Below are positions 28,608-30,354 of a DNA stretch of 35,666 nt, in pieces; position 1 is the stretch's first letter; every line of letters starts with the position of its first letter. The position numbers and the translations under genes were made by a program. Location of the stretch: assembly GCA_020061305.1 (NCBI GenBank), contig JAGUYM010000007.1:1-35666 (forward strand), written 5' to 3'. Source of the DNA: Candidatus Woesebacteria bacterium (GTDB taxonomy: Bacteria; Patescibacteriota; Microgenomatia; UBA8517). The notes under the pieces were generated by a model, which saw only the letters and a program-made list of their open reading frames with translations, made no database searches and was not told where the DNA came from.

Positions 28608-29240
28608 ATGTATTTAAATATATTACCTACAGGACAGGAAGAAGTAATTAAAAAGTTATCGAATTACCCATTCATCAAAGATTTTTATTTAAGTGGTGGT
28701 ACTGCTCTTGCTTTACAATTAGGACATAGGGAGTCTGTCGATTTTGATTTTTTTGGTGAAAAAGATTTTGAACCTCAAGAATTATTAAACATATTGCAGA
28801 ATGATTTTGATGTTGAAGTTGATAAAATTGAAAGAGGAACTTTAAACTGCAGAATAAAAAATATCAAACTTCAATTTTTACATTATCCATATAAATTACT
28901 TGAAGAGTTTATAAATTGGGATGGCATTAATCTATCATCAATAGTAGATATTGCCTGCACAAAAATGATTACAGTATCTGTTCGCGGTAACAAAAAGGAT
29001 TACATAGATATTTACTTTTTGTTACAAAAATATGATCTAGGTGAATTATTTGCAAAGATGGAATTAAAATATACAGGATTGGATTTTAATGAAGCTCATA
29101 TAATAAAATCTCTAACTTATTTTAATGAGGCTGATGAACAGCCAATGCCAAGAATGCATATAGAAACAGATTGGGGAAATGTTAAAAAGGTTATTTCTTC
29201 AAAAGCAGTTGAGTATCTTAAGAAAGTTGACGTGTTTTGA
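28608..29240 (+). CDS. Nucleotidyltransferase, AbiEii/AbiGii-type toxin family
   Basis: 'FYLSGGTALALQLGHRESVDFDFFGEKDFEPQEL' and 'DIACTKMITVSVRGNKKDYIDIYFLLQKY'; ATG 28608. Confidence 0.82.
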   Translation: MYLNILPTGQEEVIKKLSNYPFIKDFYLSGGTALALQLGHRESVDFDFFGEKDFEPQELLNILQNDFDVEVDKIERGTLNCRIKNIKLQFLHYPYKLLEEFINWDGINLSSIVDIACTKMITVSVRGNKKDYIDIYFLLQKYDLGELFAKMELKYTGLDFNEAHIIKSLTYFNEADEQPMPRMHIETDWGNVKKVISSKAVEYLKKVDVF

Positions 29241-29288
29241 TATCAAGGAGAATATTTACAAACTTCAAAACAGTAGTAAATTGTAGTT

Positions 29289-29456
29289 ATGGCACATAAA
29301 ACATTTTGTGACATCTGTGATATCGAGGTTGATTGGTACGAGCTTGTAAATGTTGATATTAGGCGAGGCAAAAGAGGAGAATATTGCAAAAAGTGTTGGT
29401 ACGATGAAAAGAATTGGAAGGATATTCATGAGAAGCCTGCTTCTGATATGGAATAG
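29289..29456 (+). CDS. Small zinc-ribbon-like protein (55 aa), not in the supplied ORF track
   Basis: ATG 29289 to TAG 29454-29456: MAHKTFCDICDIEVDWYELVNVDIRRGKRGEYCKKCWYDEKNWKDIHEKPASDME; two CxxC pairs. Confidence 0.6.
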   Translation: MAHKTFCDICDIEVDWYELVNVDIRRGKRGEYCKKCWYDEKNWKDIHEKPASDME

Positions 29457-29465
29457 GTCGTATCA

Positions 29466-29525
29466 GGTCGTGCAGGGGTATCTTAAAGAAAAAAGTCTTT
29501 AAAATATTGTTCCCCCACACGGACC
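29466..29525. repeat. 60-nt imperfect inverted repeat
   Basis: GGTCGTGCAGGGG...TTAAAGA-AAAAAG-TCTTTAA...CCCCCACACGGACC; nested arms. Confidence 0.6.
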
Positions 29526-29540
29526 TGTAATTTTTTATAA

Positions 29541-29619
29541 GCCTAGCAAATTTATTGAACATCCCAAGCAATCTTGGTTGAAACACACATTGGTGTGCTG
29601 CTCAATACCCAAACTAGGC
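29541..29619. repeat. Nested inverted repeat forming a branched two-hairpin structure
   Basis: GCCTAG/CTAGGC; TATTGA/TCAATA; internal CCAAG-CAAT-CTTGG and CACAC-ATTG-GTGTG. Confidence 0.5.
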
Positions 29620-29669
29620 ATCCCCCTTGCAAAACAATTTCAATGAAAAAACAAAATAATTCCAAACCT

Positions 29670-29717
29670 CATGCGCGAGCGCCTTCAATCCGAAGATTGA
29701 GCCTCCAAGCCCGCATG
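29670..29717 (-). terminator. Stem-loop with UUCG tetraloop downstream of the minus-strand membrane gene
   Basis: Minus strand CATGCG...TCAATC-TTCG-GATTGA...CGCATG, 13 nt past the stop codon; the T-rich tract (TTTTGTTTTTT) is further downstream, so terminator function is uncertain. Confidence 0.4.
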
Positions 29718-29730
29718 GGTTCATTTCCCC

Positions 29731-30144
29731 TTATTGTCTTTTTTGACCCACGATGAAGGACAGACTGTTGCAGAGGTTCATAAGGCTGATGACGCCAAAG
29801 AACAATACGGCAAACTGCGCCGATACAACAAACCAGTAGTCCATGGCGATCCAGACGAACGCCGCCAAAAGGTTTGCCCCTGCAAACGCAACAGCCCATA
29901 ACACGCCATGCCATGTGAACCCGTCATTGTAGATGGCGGTAAGCACAGACAGCGGAATGAATAGGGTATGTGAAAGCAGGACCAGTGCTGTGTACATGGA
30001 CATGGTGCCGATGGCATCTTCGATGTAGAAGTCGCTCATGTATACCGCGCCGAAGGTGTTGCCGACGATGACATAGGTGTAATATGTCAGCAATCCAGCC
30101 AGGATCAAGTAGAACAATTTCAATGCTTTGATTGTATTACTCAT
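29731..30144 (-). CDS. Orphan membrane protein (137 aa, about four TM segments), GC-richer than surroundings
   Basis: Start at 30144 (MSNTIKALKLFYLILAGLL...) rather than 30369, supported by SD GGAGG 5 nt upstream; hydrophobic throughout. Confidence 0.75.
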   Translation of the reverse strand: MSNTIKALKLFYLILAGLLTYYTYVIVGNTFGAVYMSDFYIEDAIGTMSMYTALVLLSHTLFIPLSVLTAIYNDGFTWHGVLWAVAFAGANLLAAFVWIAMDYWFVVSAQFAVLFFGVISLMNLCNSLSFIVGQKRQ

Positions 30145-30169
30145 TTCATCCTCCGATGAAAATATTTTG

Positions 30170-30239
30170 GGTTTGATTTTAGCCGAAGCTAGACCCATTT
30201 TAGGCACATATTGTATGCGCAAAATGGGTCCATCAAACC
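30170..30239 (-). ncRNA. Putative structured cis-regulatory leader (three-way junction)
   Basis: Minus strand: GGTTTGAT-G-GACCCATTTT-GCGCATA-CAA-TATGTGC-CT-AAAATGGGTC-TAGC-TTCG-GCTA-AA-ATCAAACC; P1 8 bp, P2 10+7 bp, P3 4 bp capped by UUCG. Confidence 0.6.
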
Positions 30240-30325
30240 ACTTATTTTTGCAAGAGTTGTTAAGGTACAAGTCTAAAAACAAAAAATACTTCAAATGTCG
30301 CAATCGATATCTAAAGTATGTTTCC

Positions 30326-30354
30326 ACTATATCACTAACTATAGGTTTTGTCAA
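30326..30354 (-). promoter_or_regulatory. Sigma70-type promoter for the minus-strand membrane gene
   Basis: TTGACA (30354-30349), 17-nt spacer, TATAGT (30331-30326) on the minus strand. Confidence 0.7.

Follow-up and report, generated by a model that had tools for sequence, protein, structure and literature searches.

A putative folded mRNA leader carrying a boxA-like box precedes differing membrane genes between uvrA and a transglutaminase gene in Microgenomatia

The window analyzed in this work, that is, the whole stretch of 35,666 nucleotides taken from contig JAGUYM010000007.1 of a Candidatus Woesebacteria genome (hereafter G000) from an ultra-small bacterium, a Candidatus Microgenomatus, carries between uvrA and a transglutaminase gene an orphan gene, P0001 (29731–30144, minus strand), encoding a 137-aa membrane protein with four predicted helices. 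Its GC3 is 0.66, against 0.19–0.30 in seven other genes of the window, and P0001 therefore looks foreign by composition. No homologues were detected among 143 relatives, GTDB contigs, viral contigs, phages and plasmids, nor in Pfam, NCBIfam, PHROGs and PADLOC. The predicted structure contains four helices, with a mean pLDDT of 62, too poor for a fold search; P0001 is probably a membrane protein with four helices. Two further reading frames lie in this insert, at 28617–29458, namely a nucleotidyltransferase-like gene that resembles AbiEii by eye and a short ORF rich in cysteine; the congener G001 described below has neither of them at this place.

The leader of P0001 is read entirely on the minus strand. 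Its promoter, TTGACA-17-TATAGT (30326–30354), agrees with the consensus at 11 of 12 positions and is the best in the region. It is followed by a 5'-proximal hairpin, TACTTTAGATATCG..CATTTGAAGTA (30285–30320), by the boxA-like motif GTACCTTAACAA (30257–30268), and by TCTTGCAAAAATA (30243–30255), which is the conserved second half of the box as well as the left arm of an inverted repeat flanking the gene. Next come a three-way junction of helices P1, P2 and P3 (30170–30239) and the hairpin TTTCATC-GGAG-GATGAAA(ATG) (30142–30161), whose 7-bp stem holds the Shine-Dalgarno (SD) sequence in its loop. A preliminary description of this DNA had placed the promoter, a leader of ~175 nt, a 70-nt junction, the SD hairpin and an ATG at 30144 on one strand, and each of these lies where it was placed. 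The box segment 30268–30243 is the most conserved part over the three genomes compared below; that description had overlooked it, together with the downstream elements of the same island.

In the junction, P1 has 8 bp, P2 has 10+7 bp with a 2-nt bulge, and P3 has 4 bp capped by UUCG, the joins being of 1, 0 and 2 nt. For the leader, a folding energy of -56.9 kcal/mol was obtained (z -6.2), with none of 200 shuffles as stable, and the junction module folded alone reaches z -6.0; in a 90-nt scan across the whole window, it ranks second for GC-corrected fold strength, behind a 3' hairpin termed H0. A three-way junction of such compactness was found at one site in the window, and three overlapping-frame matches occurred in four shuffled windows; the compact topology by itself is not very rare, and it is the stability of this junction that is rare. 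The fold had not been recognised as a known riboswitch class, and an Rfam search of the leader returned no family at gathering score or at E≤10; the only match, RF02650 (E 0.16), was far under its gathering score and located outside the leader. No alternative terminator was found near the junction. Regarding translation, the 16S rRNA carries a normal anti-SD although most starts in the window lack an SD, and the start of P0001 has one, unlike nearly all the others. The earlier remark that many other genes here appear leaderless stands in part: an SD-like motif accompanies only 2 of about 35 checked starts in the window, but this establishes the absence of an SD and not leaderlessness.

Comparison with relatives provided the wider context of this arrangement. 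Across the family, many genomes have uvrA and the transglutaminase gene close together, often abutting, with inserts in some. The leader was found at their junction in three genomes, namely G000, its congener G001 (contig DYGS01000001.1, Candidatus Microgenomatus sp. BE2012_5_35_30) and G009, which belongs to a different genus. At this locus, G001 carries a GC-rich membrane gene of 135 aa, for which BLASTP showed no similarity to P0001, and G009 a GC-rich membrane gene of 143 aa. These three genes (137, 135 and 143 aa) are mutually unrelated by BLASTP or Pfam, their proteins have no detectable homologues, and their GC3 of 0.58–0.70 stands against 0.19–0.30 in the neighbours. A global alignment of P0001 with P0002 scored 2 sd above shuffles, and P0003 was without similarity; a similar length and a four-helix layout are common to the membrane proteins. 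The promoter core, formed by the first 22 nt of the promoter, is identical, with one R position, between G000 and G009 at the same locus, and among 51 genomes of the family it occurs exactly only in these two. Genome G013 has a promoter core with two mismatches next to where uvrA ends; the site is empty, as no membrane gene of this type follows the core. The 5'-proximal hairpin has a similar counterpart in G001 and is absent from G009. Position, promoter and box are conserved, the paired structure is kept in two genera, and the genes differ.

The box, CTTTAACAA-TCTTGCAAAA, is present in all three leaders and occurs once per genome in G000 and G001, its boxA-like part reading GTACTTTAACAA in G001 and GTTCTTTAAAAA in G009. 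A search for the box pattern in 382 genomes of the class gave 14 matches, for which a reversed-pattern control is no null where coding sequence is concerned; only the three at the locus look real, and the other matches resemble coding sequence. The consensus GYTCTTTAANA was derived for gamma-proteobacteria (PMC5725501); relative to it, the motif has no mismatches in G009, one in G001 and two in the window. All three genomes have a gene for NusB. Their rRNA leaders bear a somewhat different box, which ruled out that the leader was copied from an rRNA operon.

Behind the box, G009 carries the same three-way junction as the window (L055:1231-1308, minus strand). Between the two, both partners differ in 11 base pairs, and pairing is kept in 58 of 59 cells, a count made on a structural alignment that was built by hand to fit the structure and so leans towards it; the junction proposed earlier shows compensatory changes in a homologue. 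In slid-partner controls, 0–3 two-sided changes and 17–48% pairing were obtained. Among 500 shuffles, one was as high, but with only two sequences this test says little; more weight falls on the slid controls and on the independent fold of the G009 sequence (z -8.0). In each of the two genomes, G-U pairs make the fold of the minus strand more stable than that of the plus strand (-31.5 vs -27.7 and -43.4 vs -32.5), pointing to a minus-strand RNA to which the junction would belong. At unpaired positions, the two junctions share no obvious core beyond the AA joiner at the P3-P1 join. The congener G001 lacks the junction and has a different, longer branched fold. With a covariance model (R1), confident matches among 382 genomes of the class were restricted to G000 and G009; a match in G338 (23.8 bits, E 0.04) had no leader-like context and was taken as chance. 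Only three leaders are known, and only two of them have the junction.

The 3' flank of the gene contributes further elements, all on the minus strand: a structured element E (29665–29721), the TTTTGCAAG region (29627–29634), which is the right arm of a 9-bp inverted repeat to 30243–30255, a branched hairpin J1 (GCCTAG..CTAGGC; 29541–29619), and the long hairpin H0 (29464–29528), the strongest fold of the window, in whose place G001 has a different hairpin. G001 matches the 70 bp surrounding element E at 90% identity, although the gene in front of them is a different one. A pattern search for element E in GTDB gave six matches, one being that of G001; the other five are apparently due to chance, and at least two of them, from Aminicenantes, lie inside a kinase ORF of annotated length. 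Read on the plus strand, H0 is followed by TAATTTTTTA and could terminate upstream genes. Among six cassettes, five have the gene enclosed by inverted repeats of 8–11 bp. That of the window is not significant alone, 26 of 300 shuffles being as good, and those of the second gene in G009 and in G041 are stronger (2/300 and 4/300). For the first gene of G009, the longest repeat has 11 bp and pairs the P2 region of the leader with the 3' hairpin; the 8-bp repeat located at the box ranks only third in the list, and its meaning is uncertain. Behind the two genes of G009 lie 3' elements that are 94% identical over 69 nt. Except for this hairpin, present twice within the G009 island, the elements are single copies, with none of the additional genomic copies expected of a mobile repeat (MITE/REP); the junction occurs once in G000 and is not a repeat found elsewhere in that genome.

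A second case of the same kind was found within genus g9, in G009 and G041 (L109 3100-3770 and L108 1568-2270). There, 65 nt of the promoter and early leader of the second gene are shared at 92%, and beyond them the leaders and the membrane genes are unrelated; a perfect 11-bp inverted repeat, TTGTCGCTAGC/GCTAGCGACAA, surrounds the gene. The same island in G041 holds a GC-rich gene for a 247-aa secreted-type protein with a T/P-rich linker, preceded by an SD (L108 659-1402). Another GC-rich stretch lies upstream of the rRNA operon in G009 (L086 1-1001, upstream of 16S), so that genes of foreign appearance also occur outside the uvrA island. The match to 16S in G013 (C1:671902-675175; L078, L081) is interrupted at about model position 873 and extends over ~3.3 kb, suggesting a 16S gene with insertions.

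The best explanation of these findings, which in our judgement could equally prove right or wrong, is that a transcribed and structured 5' leader, bearing a boxA-like motif, belongs to an island of variable genes located between uvrA and the transglutaminase gene, where membrane genes of foreign origin are exchanged. The strong promoter would yield a minus-strand RNA starting with the boxA-like box, which would fold into the three-way junction and then present the SD for a GC-rich foreign membrane gene; lineages would retain stretches of the leader and of the 3' flank while the intervening membrane gene is swapped. We infer that the box might recruit NusB/S10, making the polymerase resist termination in foreign sequence, that the folded ends, with the inverted repeat between 5' and 3', may stabilize or insulate the mRNA, and that the leader could in this way let polymerase and ribosomes express an unadapted foreign gene. 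A ligand for the leader is not needed. A bolder formulation, rather unlikely in our estimate, is that of a dedicated Microgenomates expression site, at which an rRNA-style leader (box, closing inverted repeat and folded junction) would serve as a docking platform and unrelated foreign envelope genes would be swapped, a matched inverted repeat flanking each of them and no classical integron being involved.

Several other readings compete with the exchange of genes behind a kept leader. The inverted repeats and hairpins may be DNA features, namely the ends of a mobile or invertible cassette, with the RNA fold being secondary. Flanks that persist while genes differ, the inverted repeats in five cassettes, the nearly identical ends of the two G009 cassettes, and the promoter left without a cassette in G013 would all agree with this; against it, pairing in the junction relies on G-U on the minus strand, the plus strand gives a poorer fold, the repeats vary between cassettes, and no recombinase gene was identified beside the island and no target duplication by eye. 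A canonical attC in element E was also discarded, since the RYYYAAC and GTTRRRY ends were absent on reading in both the window and G001. Altogether, we consider this reading possible though doubtful. It is unlikely, in turn, that the membrane genes are one ordinary orthologue evolving very fast behind an ordinary structured leader, with no cassette exchange. The similar length and four-helix layout and the weak similarity between P0001 and P0002 would allow the three short membrane proteins to be very divergent homologues, but P0003 shares no similarity, and their GC3, in genomes whose other genes mostly lie lower, would be hard to reach by divergence in place. Gene replacement is better supported than extreme divergence, but unproven.

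Readings in which the leader acts as a sensor appear weaker still. A metabolite riboswitch of a new class, in which ligand binding to the junction would control how accessible the SD of the membrane gene is, could draw on a compact junction whose helices are maintained in another genus and on an SD just downstream that is paired in two of the three leaders. Nevertheless, the ligand-sensing role suggested in the preliminary description fares poorly: the two junctions have no obviously conserved unpaired core beyond their AA joiner, the congener has replaced the junction, the genes behind the leader change between genomes, are mutually unrelated and belong to no known transporter or enzyme family, and no alternative terminator was found near the junction. 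We therefore regard it as quite improbable. An RNA thermometer, or a plain translational SD hairpin, takes its appeal from the position of the SD inside the loop of the 7-bp hairpin; this is extremely improbable, as the prediction for the window leaves the SD unpaired at 10–60 °C, whereas in G009 and G001 it is paired, with little change with temperature, so that exposure does not respond and masking is not conserved. Start-codon values for the window, which relate to an ATG triplet further upstream, were left out of this comparison. The thermosensor considered earlier is not supported.

Host-dependent bacteria such as these are difficult to cultivate, and their gene regulation and surface change are poorly understood. 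A conserved leader before changing envelope genes may serve as a marker for finding such genes, and also as a handle on foreign gene expression in reduced genomes; it is, moreover, a leader RNA not represented in Rfam.

Regarding known systems, riboswitches built on a compact three-way junction, such as TPP, purine and hammerhead-like folds, likewise place it in the 5' UTR before the SD, but the leader described here has no Rfam match, no obviously conserved core nucleotides and no metabolite-linked gene. Integron cassettes resemble the island in that one site is occupied by different genes, with a conserved imperfect palindrome behind each of them; here, in contrast, each gene has its own promoter and leader, element E lacks RYYYAAC/GTTRRRY, and no adjacent integrase was seen. 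Invertible, phase-variable segments also have a gene separated from its promoter by a short inverted repeat and followed by another; in our case neither an inverted copy nor an invertase was seen, and the repeats differ between cassettes of one genome. The comparison with Nus-factor boxA leaders has its own differences, as a foreign membrane gene stands behind the box, which is putative by sequence and has two mismatches in the window, and the junction is unknown in those leaders. Nonetheless, the leaders of rRNA operons and the suhB 5' UTR (PMC5725501) likewise combine a boxA-like motif near the transcript start, structure behind it and NusB in the genome, and in suhB the box works in an mRNA leader near the SD (PMC5725501).
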